Shown piece after piece: positions 52,261 through 59,301 of a DNA stretch of 59,664 nt. The DNA lies in NCBI RefSeq assembly GCF_000743535.1, contig NZ_AVCJ01000011.1, positions 1-59,664 of the forward strand. Reading direction: 5' to 3'. Origin of the DNA: Arenimonas donghaensis DSM 18148 = HO3-R19. GTDB taxonomy: Bacteria; Pseudomonadota; Gammaproteobacteria; Xanthomonadales; Xanthomonadaceae. The notes beneath the pieces are model-generated. The model worked only from the letters and a program-made list of their open reading frames with translations. It had not been told where the DNA came from and did no database searches. Positions within the stretch are counted from its first letter, which is position 1, and each line of letters opens with the position of its first letter. The position numbers were made by a program, and so were the translations under genes.

Positions 52261-52560
52261 TCAGGGCGTGGCCAGGGTGACCTGCTGCATGTCGTCGTGC
52301 ATCGCGACCAGGCGCTGCACCTGCGGCATGTGCGCCTTGCGCGCCTGCTGCTCCATGCCCAGCGACTTGCTGTCGAAGCGCACGTTCTCGCGGATGACGA
52401 TCTTGAAGCTCACCGTGGCCGACGCCGACACCCGGGCGCCGTCGCTGCTGACGGCGAGTTCGCCCTGGGCGAAGGCGGGCTGGGCCATGGCCATCGCCAG
52501 CACGGCGCAAGCCGAGAGGCGGATCAGACGTGCGGAATTGGCGAGGCGCTTGGCGTTCAT
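52261..52560 (-). CDS. Small secreted hypothetical protein
   Basis: 99 aa. A signal peptide (LSACAVLAMAMAQPAFAQG) with cleavage after AFA-Q gives about 67 mature residues: a beta-rich start (ELAVSSDGARVSASATVSFK) and a helical end (KAHMPQVQRLVAMHDDMQQ). No family recognised. The 232-base region upstream holds no other gene; I see no strong promoter in it. Confidence 0.6.
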   Translation of the reverse strand: MNAKRLANSARLIRLSACAVLAMAMAQPAFAQGELAVSSDGARVSASATVSFKIVIRENVRFDSKSLGMEQQARKAHMPQVQRLVAMHDDMQQVTLATP

Positions 52561-52792: not shown

Positions 52793-54553
52793 TCAGTTCG
52801 CGGCGACGGTGGTCGTGTCGGCCTCGAGGCCATGGGTGCGCACGCGGTCGCGGCCGGCGTGCTTGGCCTGGTAGAGCGCGTCGTCGGCCCGGCTGAGCAG
52901 GGTCAGGAAGTCATAGCCGCTTGCGCGCGTACCTGAAACGCCGAAGCTGGCGGTCACGGCGAAGGCGTGGCCGGTCGACGTCGTATCGATCGCGGCGATG
53001 CGCTTGCGGCAGGCCTGCGCCAGCGCCACGGAGGAGGGCAGGTCGCAGCCCACCAGCAGGAAGGCGAACTCTTCGCCGCCCAGGCGGCCGAAGCGGTCGT
53101 TCTTGCGGCAGATGTCCGAACAGACCTTGGCCACCTCTTGCAGCACCCAGTCACCGGTCGCGTGGCCAAAACGATCGTTGATGGACTTGAATTCGTCGAG
53201 GTCGAACATGACCAGACCGACTTCCTCGCCGTCCTTGCTGCAATACGCCAGCGCCTGCTCGGCGCGACGACTGAAGTCCATGCGGTTGGAGACGCCGGTG
53301 AGCGCATCGGTTTCGGCCAGGCGCTGGAACTTCACCTGCGAGCGTTTGGTGCGCCAAGCCCAGAAGGCAATGGTGCCGAGCAGCACCGCCAGCAGTGCGA
53401 TGGCGAGCTGCGTGTTGCGGGTGGCCAGCGCCGAAGCCTCTTCGCGCAGCTGCAGGACCTGGTTCTCGCGATTCAACAGCTCGATGGTCTGGTTCTTCTC
53501 GCGCGTCTCGCCCAGCACCTGCTCGTACACCAGGGCCCTGGCCTTGACCTCATTGAGATAAGCGCTATTGGCGTCGAAATAATTGATGTGGTGTGCGAGC
53601 GCGGCCGCGTTGTTGCCACGCTGCAGGGCGCTCTCGTACAGGACGCGATGGGCGGTGACCAACGGCGCCGAGCTCGCCATCGCCGTTGCATGCCGCATGA
53701 CGCCCCGGGCGAAGCGGTCCGCGGCCTCGTAGTCACCCGCCGCCAGGTAAGCCTCCGCCAGCGTGGCATAGACCTCGCCGATGACCCGGGGATACTTGGT
53801 CGCTTCCACTTCGTCCAGGTGCTGGCTCAGGAGCACGATGGCACCGTTGCGATCGCCACGGTCGGCCATCAGGCGCGCATGGTAGGCGCGCACGTAATTC
53901 GCGAACAACGGCTCACCCGCGCCCACGCACTCGTCGATGATCGTGCGGACCTCGGTTTCCCGGCCCGAAAGCTGGCCCATGTTGTAGAAGGCCTCCATGC
54001 GCAAGGCGCCGGCGAAACAACTCGTCCTGGCGCTGGGCGAATCGGCCAGCATCAGGTCGGCATAGCGGATTCCCTGTTCATACTGGCCGACGTGGTTGCT
54101 TATCGAGCCCGCCGCGGCCCAGGCGTGGTGGCGAATCTCCGGATCGCCGACCTCGTCGACCAGCCCGATCATCTGGTTCAGGTACCGCAGCCCCTCGGAA
54201 AAATCCCGGGTCGCGGCATAGGAATTGACGATCAGCGAGCCCGCCTGGACCTTGGTTTCAATGTCCGTGCTGTTCTCGAACAGCGTCTTGGCGGCTTCGA
54301 TGCCGAGATCAAACCTGCCGCTGAAGGAAAGCTGGTAGGCCTTGAGGTATTCGAGCTTCTGCCGCTGGCGATCACTCGCAGCCTTGATGCTGGCGTTGAG
54401 CTGCCCGACGAGCTCGTTGAATTGTTCCGGGTCGGCACTTCGCACCAACTCCGCCCGCTCCAGCATCGCTTCAAATGCCGGAGATGCAGCCAAAGGCGGC
54501 GGCGCCAGGAATAGCGCCACCGCCAGGGCAAATGGAATCGCCTTTGCCTGCAT
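52793..54553 (-). CDS. TPR-type periplasmic sensor, membrane-anchored diguanylate cyclase
   Basis: 586 aa. Signal sequence, then about 330 residues of TPR-like helix pairs (e.g. GEVYATLAEAYLAAGDYEAADRF-type units) in the periplasm. A coiled coil (LNRENQVLQLREEASALA), one TM helix (LAIALLAVLLGTIAFWAW) and a GGDEF domain follow, with DALTGVSNRMDF, DLDEFKSINDRFGHATGD and intact GGEEF. It makes c-di-GMP. It starts 14 bases after the borosin precursor stop, so it looks like the last gene of that operon; this link could mean that peptide production and c-di-GMP signalling are tied. Confidence 0.9.
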   Translation of the reverse strand: MQAKAIPFALAVALFLAPPPLAASPAFEAMLERAELVRSADPEQFNELVGQLNASIKAASDRQRQKLEYLKAYQLSFSGRFDLGIEAAKTLFENSTDIETKVQAGSLIVNSYAATRDFSEGLRYLNQMIGLVDEVGDPEIRHHAWAAAGSISNHVGQYEQGIRYADLMLADSPSARTSCFAGALRMEAFYNMGQLSGRETEVRTIIDECVGAGEPLFANYVRAYHARLMADRGDRNGAIVLLSQHLDEVEATKYPRVIGEVYATLAEAYLAAGDYEAADRFARGVMRHATAMASSAPLVTAHRVLYESALQRGNNAAALAHHINYFDANSAYLNEVKARALVYEQVLGETREKNQTIELLNRENQVLQLREEASALATRNTQLAIALLAVLLGTIAFWAWRTKRSQVKFQRLAETDALTGVSNRMDFSRRAEQALAYCSKDGEEVGLVMFDLDEFKSINDRFGHATGDWVLQEVAKVCSDICRKNDRFGRLGGEEFAFLLVGCDLPSSVALAQACRKRIAAIDTTSTGHAFAVTASFGVSGTRASGYDFLTLLSRADDALYQAKHAGRDRVRTHGLEADTTTVAAN

Positions 54554-54567
54554 CAGGTCACCGGGGA

Positions 54568-54867
54568 TCAGTGCAGGCCGTTGCGGGTGGCCGATTCCTT
54601 CTTTTCGTCGTCGTCGGGCGAATTGCTGTCCTCGTCCTCGGAATCCTTCTGGTTGTCATCGCCTTCCGCCGGGAACAGCATGCAGAGCATCTTGGGACGG
54701 CCGCCGAGCAGGTCGCCCAGCGCGCCCGAGTCGCGGCTCATGAGGGCCTGGCGCACTTCGTCGTCCACCGCCAGCGAGGCGACTTCGGTTTCATAGCCGA
54801 TGCTGTCGCCGGCGGCAGGCTGCGGGGTGCTTCCAAGACGCTCAAGGAACTCAATGACATTGGACAT
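54568..54867 (-). CDS. Split-borosin precursor peptide (SonA-like) with acidic tail
   Basis: 99 aa. It aligns without gaps to the N-terminal borosin-binding domain of Shewanella SonA as I remember it: FLERLG at 7-12 (SonA FFTQLG), DDEVRQALMSRDSGALGDLL at 35-54 (SonA TDEQINAVMTGDMEKLKTLS). The core should therefore start near residue 57; K59-M-L-C-M-L-F65 is the hydrophobic stretch where SonA is N-methylated (63 and 65). P66 cannot be methylated. Unlike SonA, about 30 highly acidic residues follow (EDEDSNSPDDDEKK). GGAGAG precedes the ATG. It lies 15 bases after the methyltransferase gene. Confidence 0.78.
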   Translation of the reverse strand: MSNVIEFLERLGSTPQPAAGDSIGYETEVASLAVDDEVRQALMSRDSGALGDLLGGRPKMLCMLFPAEGDDNQKDSEDEDSNSPDDDEKKESATRNGLH

Positions 54868-54882
54868 GGTTTTCTCTCCGTT

Positions 54883-55701
54883 CTATGGGATTACCGGGGT
54901 TGCATCGTCACGCTTTGCGGCCTCGTCCAGCGCACGCAGCCGGGCCAGCATCGCTTCATTGGGCTGCAGCGGCCTGGCCGGCGGCAGCACGAGGGTGGTT
55001 TGTGCCTCCACCCGGGCGTCGGGCACGTCGCGCAGCATCAGCGTTTCGATGCGCGGTTCGTGGATCGGCAGGGTAGCGGCTTCGTACAACATGCATGGGT
55101 GGTCCAACGGATAGTCCTCCGCCAGCAGGTCAACCAGCAATTGCCGGTAGGCCCTGGGGGTGGAGAACCTGGCCAGGCTCCGGTCGCCGGCCAGTCCGGC
55201 CTGCCAGATGACCAGGCAGGCGCTGGGGTCGATCTTGCGGCGGTAGAACATCATCTGGCTTGCCTCCAGGTGCAGGCAGCCGGTGACGCCCGGGTCGATG
55301 CCCAGGTCTGCGTAGAGGCAGTCCTCGGCGGACACGCCGGGCTCCATCAGGGCCGGGAAACCTTCCTGGCGCGCCTGTGCGATTGCACGGTGCGGCGCCT
55401 GGGCGAACACGCCCGGGTGGCCGTAGAAGGCGCCGCAGACCCGCCGGCCCGCGCGCACTTCAGCCAGCATCGCCTCGACCATTTCCCGGTAGGTGTCGGT
55501 CCGTGGCTTGCCCTCCTGGTAGTAGGGCTGGAGGCTGCGCACGTCGGGATGCATTTCCTGCACCCACAGTTCGACCAAGGGGTCGGAGACGCCCACGAAG
55601 ACGACGTCCGCCTGTTCGATGTGGTTTCGCGAACGTGGTCCGAGATGCGCGCCCAAGGTCATGCCCAGGCCTACGCACGCCAGACTTCCCTGCTTTTCCA
55701 T
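54883..55701 (-). CDS. Split-borosin alpha-N-methyltransferase (SonM-like)
   Basis: 272 aa, tetrapyrrole-methylase fold. It methylates backbone amides of the precursor with S-adenosylmethionine. It shares with SonM: ACVGLGMTLGAHL, DTYREMVEAML, YGHPGVFA, MEPGVSAEDCLYADLGIDPG, YPLDH and LPIHEPRIE. Residues Y61, R67, Y71 and Y93 match OphMA Y66, R72, Y76 and Y98 with identical spacing (6, 4, 22). Like SonM it has no fused substrate tail, so the precursor is separate (next gene, 15 bases away). The start ATG follows a GGGGG site. Confidence 0.9.
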   Translation of the reverse strand: MEKQGSLACVGLGMTLGAHLGPRSRNHIEQADVVFVGVSDPLVELWVQEMHPDVRSLQPYYQEGKPRTDTYREMVEAMLAEVRAGRRVCGAFYGHPGVFAQAPHRAIAQARQEGFPALMEPGVSAEDCLYADLGIDPGVTGCLHLEASQMMFYRRKIDPSACLVIWQAGLAGDRSLARFSTPRAYRQLLVDLLAEDYPLDHPCMLYEAATLPIHEPRIETLMLRDVPDARVEAQTTLVLPPARPLQPNEAMLARLRALDEAAKRDDATPVIP

Positions 55702-55736
55702 GGTCCCCCGATGTTCCGTGGAATACCCACCGGAGG

Positions 55737-56279
55737 TTAGCTGAACGGACCTGCCTTGTCGCGCCTTGCGGCCTGCCAGGTTTCGCGGGTGAGCGTCCAT
55801 CGGATCGGGTGCGGCGGCGCGCCTGCGGGCGCGGGCTTGAAACCCAGTCGCCGCATCAGGCCGCTCGCCGCTGCATGCCCCTCGGCGTGGCGGGTATAGA
55901 GGCGATGCAGGTCCAGGGTCTCGAATGCGTAGCGCGCCACCAGGGCAATCGCCTGCGTTGCATGGCCCTGGCCCTGGTGCGCCGGCGGCAGCAGCACGCC
56001 GACCTCGGCACCGCGGGCTTCGTCCAGGACCAGGCCCAATAACCCGAAGCCAGCACCCGCATGCTTGTCCGCCAGGATCCAGGTCATGCGCCGCATCCCG
56101 CTGCGCGGCGCCTGTCGCTCGCGCGCGAACGCGCGCATCGCTTCGGTGGTGTCCAGCGCGGGCATGGCGCGGCCCATGGTCTCGCCATCGCCGTACAGGG
56201 CCACGTAAAGCGGCTGGTCCTGGTCGCCGATCGGCCGCAGCAGCAGCGGGTCGCCAGCCAGGGTCGGCAACTCAGGCAC
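55737..56279 (-). CDS. GNAT acetyltransferase in the borosin operon
   Basis: 180 aa with a GTG start that lies 8 bases inside the protease gene. RimJ-like: LAGDPLLLRPIGDQDQ start, acetyl-CoA loop VGVLLPPAHQGQGHATQAI, and YTRHAEGHAAASGLMRRLGF. It could acetylate the N terminus or a side chain of the released peptide, or give self-protection; this is inference from location only. A shorter start is possible but would lose the first strand. Confidence 0.8.
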   Translation of the reverse strand: MPELPTLAGDPLLLRPIGDQDQPLYVALYGDGETMGRAMPALDTTEAMRAFARERQAPRSGMRRMTWILADKHAGAGFGLLGLVLDEARGAEVGVLLPPAHQGQGHATQAIALVARYAFETLDLHRLYTRHAEGHAAASGLMRRLGFKPAPAGAPPHPIRWTLTRETWQAARRDKAGPFS

Positions 56280-57522
56280 GCAGGGACGCCAGGCGGACCG
56301 TGCCCGATGCGCCGGCCAGGCCGCGGTCGAAAACGGCATAACGGCCGGCGAACAGCGGCAGGCCGAGGATGGATTGGCCGCCAAAATGTGGCAGCGCCGA
56401 AGAAAGCAGGCAGAGCGTGCGCCCGGGGCCGAGTGCGTTGCGGGGCCAGTAGTGCGATGCCGGCACGCGAACCTCGGTGGTGCCCCCGTCGGGTGCCTCG
56501 AAGCCAAAATGCAGGTCGGGCCAATCCACCGCATCCACGGCGTGCCAGGCAAGACCGTTGCCTTCGCCCAGGGCTTGCCGCGATTGTTCGACGAGTGCGG
56601 GCAGACGCGCATCCCGGGCTGCGAGCGTCTCGATGACGGCGGCGTAGGTGCCGGCGTCGAGCACGAGGAAGGAGCAACCCGTGTCGAGCAGGGCGTTGCT
56701 GCCCATCGCGGCCACCCGTGACGCGTCCAGCGGCGGCACCGGGAAGGGGTCGTTGCCGCCGACGCGCACCGTGCGCAGGTTCGCGTTGTAATAAAGGTCG
56801 TGCACGATGCGGATGTCCTGGAAGGCGCCGCGATACAGATGCTGCTGTTCGCTGCCGCCGCCCAGGACGAGCGCGCCGCGGTTGAGTGGGTCTGCTTCGA
56901 GCATCGCGACCGAAGGCTTGTCATGGACCACGTGCGCGACCGCCCGGCCGATCGCCAGGGCGAACAGGTTGCGGACCACGCCTTCTTCCTCCAGCGCGGT
57001 GAAGGCGGGTTGCAGGTGGGTGCGGGGCTGGTGGTGCAGGAAGTCCTGGAAGCGGTCCAGGTCCAGGGCATGGCCACGTTCGTAGGGCCAGGGCCAGCTG
57101 AGCGCCGGGGCATGCCCCTGTTGAGCCAGCAGCGGCGAGACGTCCCAGGCCGGGTCCAGGTTGCGGTACGCCAGGCCCCACAGGCCATCGGCGCCCTGGA
57201 ACAGCACGTCGTCGGTTTCGCAGCAGGCGAACAGCGCGTCGTCGATGGCGCGGGCGTGGTGGCCGTGGCCGAAGGCCAGGCGCGAGCGCAGCACCGGACC
57301 GGCCCAGGCACCGCCGCCGTAGCGGATCTCCTGCACCCAGGGCGTCGCCGACAGCTGGCGATCACGCTGCGCCCGGTAGGCATGGGGCCGCACCACCAGC
57401 GTGCTGCTGCCGGTGTCGAGGATCAGCTGGGCGGGATCCGCGTGTTCCCCGAACCGTGCGGTGGCCGTATATCCACCCCGGGCATGGGCGAGGGTGGTCG
57501 GGATTTCGAGGGCGGCGGGCAT
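56272..57522 (-). CDS. Pepsin-like (A1 family) aspartic protease, cytosolic
   Basis: 416 aa, bilobed pepsin fold. First catalytic motif D36-T-G-S-S-T-L, with the hydrophobic-Gly partner ADGLWGLAY (111-119); second motif D280-T-G-C-S-F-L, with its partner SILGLPLFAGRYAVFDR (384-400). Y68 is a candidate flap tyrosine. Pepsin LTLGG..L..G matches ALVLGGGSEQQHLYRGAF. There is no signal peptide or propeptide, as in the few known bacterial pepsins (shewasin type), so it should act in the cytosol. It begins the borosin operon and is a candidate to cut the leader or acidic tail from the precursor. Confidence 0.88.
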   Translation of the reverse strand: MPAALEIPTTLAHARGGYTATARFGEHADPAQLILDTGSSTLVVRPHAYRAQRDRQLSATPWVQEIRYGGGAWAGPVLRSRLAFGHGHHARAIDDALFACCETDDVLFQGADGLWGLAYRNLDPAWDVSPLLAQQGHAPALSWPWPYERGHALDLDRFQDFLHHQPRTHLQPAFTALEEEGVVRNLFALAIGRAVAHVVHDKPSVAMLEADPLNRGALVLGGGSEQQHLYRGAFQDIRIVHDLYYNANLRTVRVGGNDPFPVPPLDASRVAAMGSNALLDTGCSFLVLDAGTYAAVIETLAARDARLPALVEQSRQALGEGNGLAWHAVDAVDWPDLHFGFEAPDGGTTEVRVPASHYWPRNALGPGRTLCLLSSALPHFGGQSILGLPLFAGRYAVFDRGLAGASGTVRLASLRA

Positions 57523-57690
57523 GTCCCAAGCATAGGACAGCTCGCCGCCGGCGCCCGGCTTTTCTTGCCGGATCCGGGGTTTGCGGCGGGTTTCGGGGGG
57601 GGGCGGCGAAGGCGCCGGGACCGCCGGCAATTGCGCCGGGCCGGCTTTGGTTGCAGTGTTCCGGGCAAGCCCGCCCGACGCGCCGACCCC

Positions 57691-59301
57691 GTGAGCACCG
57701 ATACCGAGATCCTCAGCCGCCTGGAAACCCTCAACGCCATCGGCGTGGCCCTGTCGCACGAACGCGACCTGGCGACGCTGCTTGAGCGCATCCTGGAGGC
57801 CGCCCGCGACTTTGCCGACGCCGACGGCGGCACGCTGTACCTGGTCGAAGACCGCGCGCTGCGCTTCGAAGTCCTGCGCAACGACTCGCTCGGCTACTTC
57901 ATGGGCGGCCGCCACGGCAAACCCATCCACTTCCCGCCGATCCCCCTGCACCGGGAGGACGGCAGCCGCAACGACTCGATGGTGGTGGTGCACTGCGCGC
58001 TGTCGGGCCAGACCATCAACATCGCCGATGCCTACGCGGCCGAGGGTTACGACTTCAGCGGCACCCGCGCCTTCGACGCCAAGACCGGGTATCGCTCGCA
58101 GTCCTTCCTGACCGTGCCGATGAAGGACCACGACGGCCACGTCATCGGCGTGCTGCAGCTGATCAACGCCAAGGCCGCCGACGGCAGCATCCAGGTATTC
58201 GCGCCCGCGATTGAGCAGCTGGTGGAGTCGCTGGCCTCGCAGGCGGCGATCGCCCTGAACAACCGGCGGCTGATCGACCAGCTCGAGGACCTGTTCGAGG
58301 CGCTGATCAAGCTGATCAACACCGCCATCGACGAAAAATCGCCCTACACCGGCGGCCACTGCGAACGCGTGCCGGCGCTGACCACGCTGCTGGCCGACGC
58401 CGTGGCGCGCACGAAGACCGGCCCGCTGGCCGGCTTCGACATGTCCGAGGCCGATCGCTACGAGCTCAAGATCGCCGGCCTGCTGCACGACTGCGGCAAG
58501 ATCACCACGCCGGTGCACGTGGTGGACAAGGCCACCAAGCTGCAAACCCTGTTCGACCGCATCGAACTGGTCGACACCCGCTTCGAGGTGCTCAGGCGCG
58601 ATGCCGAGATCGCGATGCTCAGGGGCGAACTGGACCAGGCCGGCTACGAGGCTCGGCTGGCCCAGCTTGACGCCGACCGCGAGGCGATCCGCCAGGCCAA
58701 TACCGGCGGCGAGTTCATGAGCGACGAAAAAATCGCCGCTATCGAGCGCATCGCCGCGCATGCCTGGCGCGGGCCCGACGGCCGGGAGCAGCCCTTCCTG
58801 TCACCCGACGAGCTGGAAAACCTGTGCATCCGCCGCGGCACGCTCAACAACGCCGAGCGCGAGATCATCAACCACCACATCACCATGACCATCCGCCTGC
58901 TCGAGGCGCTGCCCTGGCCCAAGCACCTGGTCAACGTGCCCGAGTACGCCGGTGGCCACCACGAGCGCATGGACGGCAAGGGTTATCCGCGCGGCCTGAC
59001 CCGCGAGCAGATGAGCGTGCAGGCGCGGGTGATGGGCATCGCCGACATCTTCGAGGCCCTGACCGCCAGCGACCGGCCCTACAAGCCCGGCAAGACGCTC
59101 AGCGAATCGCTGACCATCCTGGGGCGCATGAAACTGGACCACCACGTGGATCCGGACCTGTTCGACGTCTTCCTGCGCGAGCGCGTGTACCTCGAGTACG
59201 CCGAACGTTTCCTGCCGGCCGAGCAGATCGACCAGATCGACTGGAGCAAGATTCCCGGCGTTTCGCCCGAGCTCGCCGCCGAGCTTTCGCGCCCGGCCTG
59301 A
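57691..59301 (+). CDS. GAF-HD-GYP cyclic-di-GMP phosphodiesterase
   Basis: 536 aa with GTG start. GAF sensor about 20-180 (DADGGTLYLVEDRALRFEV, FLTVPMKDHDGHVIGVLQLINA), then an HD-GYP domain with H266-D267-CGK, HHITMT, the HHERMDGKGYPRGL signature (about 422-435) and DIFEALTA. It degrades c-di-GMP to pGpG/GMP. An insert of about 100 residues, partly coiled-coil, separates the HD motif from the rest. Divergent from the protease operon, with 168 bases between starts. Confidence 0.92.
   Translation: MSTDTEILSRLETLNAIGVALSHERDLATLLERILEAARDFADADGGTLYLVEDRALRFEVLRNDSLGYFMGGRHGKPIHFPPIPLHREDGSRNDSMVVVHCALSGQTINIADAYAAEGYDFSGTRAFDAKTGYRSQSFLTVPMKDHDGHVIGVLQLINAKAADGSIQVFAPAIEQLVESLASQAAIALNNRRLIDQLEDLFEALIKLINTAIDEKSPYTGGHCERVPALTTLLADAVARTKTGPLAGFDMSEADRYELKIAGLLHDCGKITTPVHVVDKATKLQTLFDRIELVDTRFEVLRRDAEIAMLRGELDQAGYEARLAQLDADREAIRQANTGGEFMSDEKIAAIERIAAHAWRGPDGREQPFLSPDELENLCIRRGTLNNAEREIINHHITMTIRLLEALPWPKHLVNVPEYAGGHHERMDGKGYPRGLTREQMSVQARVMGIADIFEALTASDRPYKPGKTLSESLTILGRMKLDHHVDPDLFDVFLRERVYLEYAERFLPAEQIDQIDWSKIPGVSPELAAELSRPA

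Follow-up and report, generated by a model that had tools for sequence, protein, structure and literature searches.

The window analysed here is a stretch of 59,664 nucleotides from the 2.98 Mb genome of the gammaproteobacterium Arenimonas donghaensis (contig NZ_AVCJ01000011.1). Towards its end lie five minus-strand genes which encode, in this order, a pepsin-type (A1) aspartic protease, a GNAT acetyltransferase, a methyltransferase related to those of the borosin pathways, a small borosin precursor, and a protein combining a TPR-like domain, a transmembrane (TM) segment and a GGDEF domain (Table 1). If the acetyltransferase gene starts at its GTG codon, it overlaps the end of the protease gene by 8 bases, and the remaining intergenic gaps measure 35, 15 and 14 bases. 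Four of the products score well above the respective Pfam cut-offs, given here in parentheses: Asp 39.8 bits (19.9), Acetyltransf_3 76.0 (25.4), TP_methylase 73.7 (27.8) and GGDEF 141.5 (23.8). The precursor matched no Pfam family above cut-off, and the TPR models were found in the fifth protein only below theirs. This arrangement is more than a chance juxtaposition, because the same set of genes recurs in the same order in Shewanella, and because the TPR half of the last protein is matched only once in its own genome.

Table 1. Genes of the five-gene operon in the window
Feature	Coordinates	Strand	Details
A1 (pepsin-type) aspartic protease	56272..57522	-	416 aa; Pfam Asp, PDB matches, two D-T-G motifs
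GNAT acetyltransferase (Acetyltransf_3)	55737..56279	-	start GTG 56279 or TTG 56270; Pfam
Split-borosin alpha-N-methyltransferase (putative) METHYLTRANSFERASE	54883..55701	-	272 aa; SonM homologue; Pfam TP_methylase
Borosin precursor (putative)	54568..54867	-	99 aa; profile-detected borosin binding domain
TPR-TM-GGDEF	52793..54553	-	586 aa; Pfam GGDEF + topology

The probable split borosin pair

The methyltransferase is a stand-alone homologue of SonM of Shewanella oneidensis, to which it is about 48% identical (PDB 7ltc: E-value 2.6e-73, 250 bits, 252 of 272 residues covered). Its residues Y61, R67, Y71 and Y93 follow one another at spacings of 6, 4 and 22, exactly as do the catalytic residues Y73/R79/Y83/Y105 of KchMA (PMC11395268), and together with F99 and W166 they are invariant in 28 aligned methyltransferases. 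The SonM counterparts are given as Y58/R67/Y71/Y93, the loop between the first tyrosine and the arginine being 3 residues longer than in the window enzyme; in SonM, mutants of these four residues have reduced activity or affinity for S-adenosylmethionine (SAM), and F99/W166 form the bottom lock. Fungal borosin methyltransferases, such as the OphMA entries, are also homologous (E-values of about 1e-46 to 1e-47), but in the fungal systems (OphMA, omphalotin) the precursor is fused to the enzyme and, according to PMC12235650, cyclisation proceeds via prolyl oligopeptidase. An identity as a tetrapyrrole-biosynthesis enzyme was considered and rejected, given the score against SonM and the fact that the NCBIfam porphyrin and YabN models fell far below their cut-offs.

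The precursor comprises a borosin binding domain at about residues 1-56, a presumed core near RPKMLCMLF, a PAE motif and an acidic tail. Used alone as a query its sequence gave no match, and a profile was required: one built from 18 precursors of the window class, with no SonA-class sequence among them, recovered the SonA chains at a best E-value of 7.4e-7 and nothing else below an E-value of 1, placing the N-terminus in register with SonA 1-56. A preliminary description of this DNA, made from the letters alone, had proposed a SonM-like methyltransferase with conserved catalytic residues and a SonA-like precursor with its binding domain in register, and both proposals held in these searches. 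Iterative hidden Markov model searches found a precursor relative in 50 of 53 loci from related genomes, one of them weak (L067, E-value 1.8e-3). In all, 112 of 148 scanned loci, some of which are duplicates, yielded 122 precursors whose start is clear, 115 of them distinct. They share a short hydrophobic stretch behind the leader, often with a cysteine, followed in many by P-A-[E/D] and an acidic tail; the looser pattern P[AGDV][EDKH] occurs within the first 30 tail residues in 111 of 160 distinct long tails. Core-like repeats, read by eye, are present in some precursors (L060, L091, L108, L155), and several loci hold two to five precursors. The similarities to both SonM and SonA support the assignment of the two window proteins, predicted from their sequences, as the partners of a split (type IV) borosin pair.

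Variations on this precursor plan were also observed. In Povalibacter and a Steroidobacter relative (L116, L121) the tails are long, lysine-rich and histone-like rather than acidic. One locus that has no cyclase encodes a precursor with repeated YFC-type core-like stretches (L060:6998-7333), and two loci (L102, L119) have five precursor matches apiece near one methyltransferase, along with two or more TPR-family frames.

SonM-SonA of S. oneidensis shares with the window pair a separate methyltransferase and a precursor with the binding domain, the catalytic residues, and the adjacency of the two genes. The window system differs in the longer acidic tail, the cysteine-containing core and the PAE motif of its precursor, and in the additional protease and acetyltransferase genes. 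Among the genomes examined, SonA 1-58 matches one Shewanella genome (G533) at 100%, and the SonM of that genome has the residues of the PDB SonM chain. There, SonM and SonA are followed by a 596-residue TPR-TM-GGDEF frame with a TTG start directly after the SonA stop. As the literature gives SonM as SO1478 and SonA as SO1479, the corresponding cyclase should be SO1480. The same succession was seen in 20 of 20 SonM-type loci, where the cyclase lies behind the precursor (that of L337 being cut by the contig end), and a TPR-family frame was present in all 27 SonM-type Shewanella loci examined.

A conserved cyclase partner

The fifth protein has an N-terminal signal or anchor segment (about residues 5-23), a TPR-like domain with C179 and C209, a TM segment (about 381-400) and a GGEEF motif at 492 with RxxD before it; the intact motif and the membrane topology predict a diguanylate cyclase. 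It is not a generic cyclase, because the protein itself is the only one of its 41 matches in the window genome to cover the TPR half; the 40 others start at residue 351 or beyond and span the GGDEF end only.

To place the operon in a wider context, we drew on 100 related genomes, which supplied 53 regions, and added the best 80 named loci out of 553 confirmed in GTDB genomes; 123 loci were left after removal of duplicates. The context is full in 109 of these, with 3.5 kb of sequence on the upstream side and 4 kb on the downstream side. Within 6 kb of the methyltransferase, 107 of the 109 have a TPR-GGDEF match on the same strand that spans no fewer than 380 residues. Among the best 80 of the 553, 79 have a precursor and 79 a cyclase, the contig of the 80th stopping at the methyltransferase. 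The comparison of operon content in relatives that the preliminary description had called for shows a widely retained linkage of methyltransferase, precursor and cyclase; that account had left the TPR-TM-GGDEF protein without a role, and no other partner in the family turns out to be as well conserved. The linkage persists through clade-dependent reordering (methyltransferase-precursor-cyclase or precursor-cyclase-methyltransferase), and in four loci (L075, L077, L081, L082) cyclase and methyltransferase form one open frame, with the methyltransferase behind the TPR-TM-GGDEF part.

The association is also visible at the level of genomes. When the TPR part alone served as query against the 100 related genomes (cut at about 1e-19), and a true methyltransferase was counted in 50 of them after five weaker matches were dropped, we found both families in 48, methyltransferase only in 2, TPR only in 4 and neither in 46 (Fisher p 3e-21, kinship not corrected). 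For the two methyltransferase genomes lacking the TPR family, the search gave a fragment at the end of a contig in G088 (8e-15) and nothing strong in G048. In the four TPR-only genomes (G026, G064, G093, G098; loci L361-L364) the TPR-GGDEF gene has no methyltransferase nearby, the contig in G064 being 5.7 kb long, and a search for a precursor near it returned only a weak match in an unlikely frame in L363 (E-value 0.02). Judged by sequence and setting, the proteins of L361, L362, L363 and L364 are possible solo receptors. Two further loci (L365, L368) combine a precursor and a TPR-GGDEF gene with no local methyltransferase; their genomes carry one elsewhere, and action in trans is possible.

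Among 200 distinct TPR-family frames the two cysteines corresponding to C179 and C209 are retained in 200 and 199, respectively. A GGDEF-type motif is present in 184 (GGEEF in 182) and absent from the 16 others, which are cut or degenerate. Of the motif-bearing frames, 140 have RxxD before the motif, a TM segment is seen in 181, and the N-terminus is hydrophobic in 177. In a survey of neighbouring frames at 45 representative loci, with frame clusters judged by eye, no family other than the methyltransferase, cyclase, precursor, GNAT and A1 occurred in more than 8 loci, shadow frames aside. One cluster, present in 4 of the 45, resembles an ABC exporter.

Precursors and TPR proteins also tend to multiply together. 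Four loci (L113, L115, L118, L126) show one methyltransferase followed by precursor, receptor-like gene, precursor and receptor-like gene, and among the 123 non-duplicate loci two or more precursors occur in 8 of the 15 with at least two TPR-family frames, as against 8 of the 108 others (Fisher p 5e-5, kinship not corrected). Moreover, when pairwise distances were compared across the 127 loci that have a single precursor and a single TPR-GGDEF protein, core and TPR distances were correlated (r 0.66), and a partial correlation of 0.354 persisted with methyltransferase, leader and GGDEF distances fixed; none of 500 permutations reached this value. The corresponding partial correlations of the core were 0.079 with GGDEF, -0.101 with the methyltransferase and -0.002 with the leader. 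Across variants of the analysis (rank and quadratic forms, 106 loci with long tails, and the 77 of those 106 that remain without Shewanella, Thalassomonas and Neiella) the core-TPR value ranged from 0.27 to 0.41, and the core-methyltransferase value reached -0.26. A receptor for the core would be expected to produce such covariation; these controls on sequence distance remove kinship only in part.

The proposed pepsin and acetyltransferase module

With two D-T-G motifs (D36, D280) and a Pfam Asp match above cut-off, the protease belongs to family A1; its PDB matches are BACE1/2 (best E-value 2.7e-7), and no signal peptide is apparent in its sequence. These traits, the two D-[T/S]-G motifs and the lack of an apparent signal peptide, are shared with the Shewanella pepsins, shewasins A and D. 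Biochemistry is available for the shewasins only, the window protease being known from its sequence. The residue after the second motif is cysteine in the window (DTGC). Alanine stands there in six of seven bacterial homologues reported in PMC2761423, and in 36 A1 frames from 35 Shewanella loci the residue is mostly alanine (21) or valine (12). Alanine at this position is a trait of a subgroup and not a definition of the family, valine being common in Shewanella.

The genomic setting is likewise shared. Among 129 Shewanella genomes Pfam detected A1 in 36 and the methyltransferase was found in 112; in 35 of the 36 the A1 gene lies on the same contig and strand, 566-2103 bases (match to match) upstream of the methyltransferase, and in the 36th (G556) A1 and GNAT stand at a contig end. 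Inspection of 35 A1 loci (L298 via tblastn only, with G585 and G595 left out) revealed the order A1-GNAT-methyltransferase in 34, and 32 of the 35 then have the cyclase behind. In the other three, a GGDEF match lies upstream of A1 in L345 and L347, the contig of L347 ending soon after the precursor, and L306 is at a contig end. The A1 genes of G477, G492, G520 and G550 coincide with the coordinates of Sama_0787 (shewasin A), Sden_0804 (shewasin D), Shew_2996 and Ssed_3567 as published in PMC2761423. Since published coordinates and genome matches coincide, shewasins A and D themselves reside in such loci: all four genes adjoin a methyltransferase, and L307 and L290 show the full set of A1, GNAT, methyltransferase, precursor and TPR-GGDEF. 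The preliminary description had taken the coupling of a pepsin to a borosin pair to be without known parallel; these loci show that the set is not a single case. A word search of both pepsin papers (PMC2761423, PMC4814920) for "operon", "neighbour" and "methyltransferase" returned none of the three.

In the 100 related genomes Pfam detected A1 in 15, every one of which also has the methyltransferase; in 11 the two are close, on opposite strands in one case (G097). Pfam misses some members, as tblastn revealed A1 genes in G011 and G018. With the window GNAT as the sole query, at least 46 of the 109 full-context loci have a same-strand GNAT gene no more than 2.5 kb from the methyltransferase, on its upstream side in 36 and on its downstream side in 10. 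The protease further appears to go with a feature of the precursor. Among the 169 of 187 non-duplicate loci that have a precursor and 2 kb of upstream sequence, P-A-[E/D] lies no more than 28 residues past the leader in 44 of the 48 with A1 and in 16 of the remaining 121 (Fisher p 2e-22). Three of the 16 (L040, L049, L069) belong to genomes whose A1 gene is elsewhere, six (L033, L036, L037, L039, L045, L054) are exceptions from genomes without a Pfam A1, and a few of the matches fall outside the core as judged by eye. At the sequence level this association is suggestive of a link between protease and motif. One locus (L299) appears as a decaying operon, in which A1 and cyclase are short remnants, and the methyltransferase and two precursors, both without PA[ED], remain.

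A peptide-signalling interpretation

By homology, the product of the operon is very probably a small peptide with a methylated backbone. We consider it rather probable that it is a split-borosin peptide-signalling system, in which a periplasmic TPR domain would act as receptor, cyclic diguanylate (c-di-GMP) would be the output, and a shewasin-type protease and a GNAT acetyltransferase would mature the signal. The following steps can be envisaged: 1) The cytoplasmic methyltransferase would bind the borosin binding domain of the precursor and N-methylate the backbone of the hydrophobic core behind it, a step for which homology provides a strong argument. 2) The A1 protease might recognize P-A-[E/D] behind the core and release or trim the latter, and the GNAT enzyme might acetylate an amine of the product or an intermediate. 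3) The peptide would leave the cytoplasm by passive permeation, favoured by N-methylation of its backbone; this route is proposed because no gene for a dedicated exporter stood out as conserved. 4) The peptide would bind the periplasmic TPR domain and alter the c-di-GMP output of the GGDEF domain, a role suggested by the linkage, the gene fusion, the paired duplication and the core-TPR covariation. Methyltransferase, precursor and TPR-GGDEF would thus constitute the core system, with protease and acetyltransferase as an add-on module; by sequence this module is common to relatives of the window and to Shewanella, where the protease is a shewasin.

RRNPP-type receptors of Gram-positive bacteria are quorum-sensing proteins in which TPRs are joined to a cytoplasmic helix-turn-helix or phosphatase domain. 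The likeness is that the TPR domain would read a ribosomal peptide whose gene lies alongside. In contrast, the window TPR domain is predicted to be periplasmic and membrane-anchored with GGDEF output, and its peptide would be backbone-methylated; Pfam finds GGDEF and neither a helix-turn-helix nor a phosphatase domain, which places the protein outside the RRNPP group as defined.

Several observations weigh against the signalling interpretation. Two of the 109 full-context loci (L060, L083) have no such cyclase, and among divergent methyltransferases from a class-wide survey a search found none near L207-L213, L206 having one. Fewer than two precursors occur in 7 of the 15 multi-receptor loci. 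In the covariation analysis a control on the distal tail (71 loci) gave 0.19 against 0.37 for the core, and TPR distance, which tracks kinship best, may partly lie behind the signal. Just 16 of the 109 full-context loci have a same-strand A1 and 46 a GNAT match, so neither is generally needed. The A1 genes of G022, G068, G070 and G091 (4 of the 15 related genomes with A1) are sited away from the methyltransferase. Class-wide, A1 was detected in 5 of 369 genomes, three of which (G102, G161, G433) have no methyltransferase at an E-value of 1e-20, so that some bacterial pepsins have other settings. The shewasins work best near pH 4 according to PMC4814920, which would make a shewasin odd as a cytoplasmic maturase. 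Finally, in a tree-based test of the A1-PA[ED] association (170 rows, stricter motif), supported independent pairs agreed in 3-6 cases, opposed in 0 (rarely 1) and tied in 2-5, with a median p of 0.125 per locus and 0.06 when A1 was counted per genome. The preliminary suggestion that pepsin and GNAT belong to the pathway stands as regards a linkage kept in both Lysobacterales and Shewanella, and is weakened as regards the precursor motif that goes with the pepsin once kinship is controlled; cleavage and capping would be putative roles of these enzymes.

An alternative is that the operon yields a conventional secreted N-methylated natural product, for defence or metal handling, with the TPR-GGDEF protein tuning production or surface state without binding the peptide. 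Fungal borosins such as omphalotin are described as bioactive compounds, precursors are multiple in several loci, and the product may vary, as 93 of the 109 loci lack a same-strand A1. Nevertheless, we regard this alternative as unlikely, as no further gene family, with clusters judged by eye, reached more than 8 of the 45 representative loci, and as the cyclase stays with the methyltransferase through reordering and fusion, duplicates with the precursor and has a TPR half that covaries with the core. A different proposal, which we find improbable, holds that the protein with the binding domain is a regulatory adaptor, whose methyltransferase binding or tail methylation would report SAM or stress and control the cyclase. 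It could draw on the methyltransferases fused behind TPR-TM-GGDEF and on Miller et al. (2021), in which SonM-SonA is described without final product or function and no type IV pathway is yet tied to a final natural product. Against this, the same source has SonA methylated at two core residues (PMC8429565), the cores are hydrophobic, directly behind the leader and in some precursors repeat-like, in many species the operon also includes A1 and GNAT, and a bacterial borosin product is reported to have been described after the SonM-SonA work. That pepsin and GNAT are mere passengers, unrelated genes upstream in an inherited block, is quite improbable: the tree-corrected association falls short of significance and synteny alone would keep neighbours within one genus, but the A1-GNAT-methyltransferase order spans relatives of the window and nearly all Shewanella A1 loci, mostly with the cyclase behind, GNAT is found both upstream and downstream of the methyltransferase, and G022, G068 and G070, with A1 elsewhere, still have PA[ED] in their precursors.

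Returning to the signalling interpretation, a bolder form of it is tentative, and we give it somewhat less than an even chance: split borosins might constitute a new intercellular signal, a ribosomal, membrane-permeant methylated pheromone that needs no exporter and is read by a periplasmic two-cysteine TPR receptor that writes c-di-GMP, with shewasins maturing it, precursor-receptor pairs multiplying behind one methyltransferase, and solo receptors listening in on neighbours. The individual enzymes are of known kinds, and the possibly new part is the joining of split borosins with the TPR cyclase and the shewasins. No paper joining borosins with a diguanylate cyclase or a shewasin was found in the literature covered, which excludes the main borosin-mining papers (Imani et al. 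2022, Cho et al. 2022) that may already show such neighbours. The linkage suggests what borosin peptides and bacterial pepsins may be for. In well over a hundred species the putative methylated-peptide operon is tied to a predicted c-di-GMP-making membrane sensor, with pepsins in a subset. For SonM-SonA, the cyclase points to c-di-GMP, biofilm and motility as what the pair might affect. For the bacterial pepsins, whose function a 2016 paper called unresolved (PMC4814920), the operon offers candidate substrates two genes away. Were the receptor role correct, there would be a route from peptide to c-di-GMP using a protease-resistant, drug-like signal.

Two neighbours of the operon deserve mention. 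Divergently oriented at 57685-59301 (+) is a GAF-HD-GYP-like gene (HD_5 and GAF in Pfam), another c-di-GMP-type enzyme; it was rejected as an operon partner, as its long matches in the loci compared are confined to close relatives of the window, and its position is probably genus synteny. Downstream, at 52261-52560 (-), lies a gene for a 99-residue protein with no Pfam family above cut-off; it has a signal-like N-terminus and is retained in several loci of the same genus.

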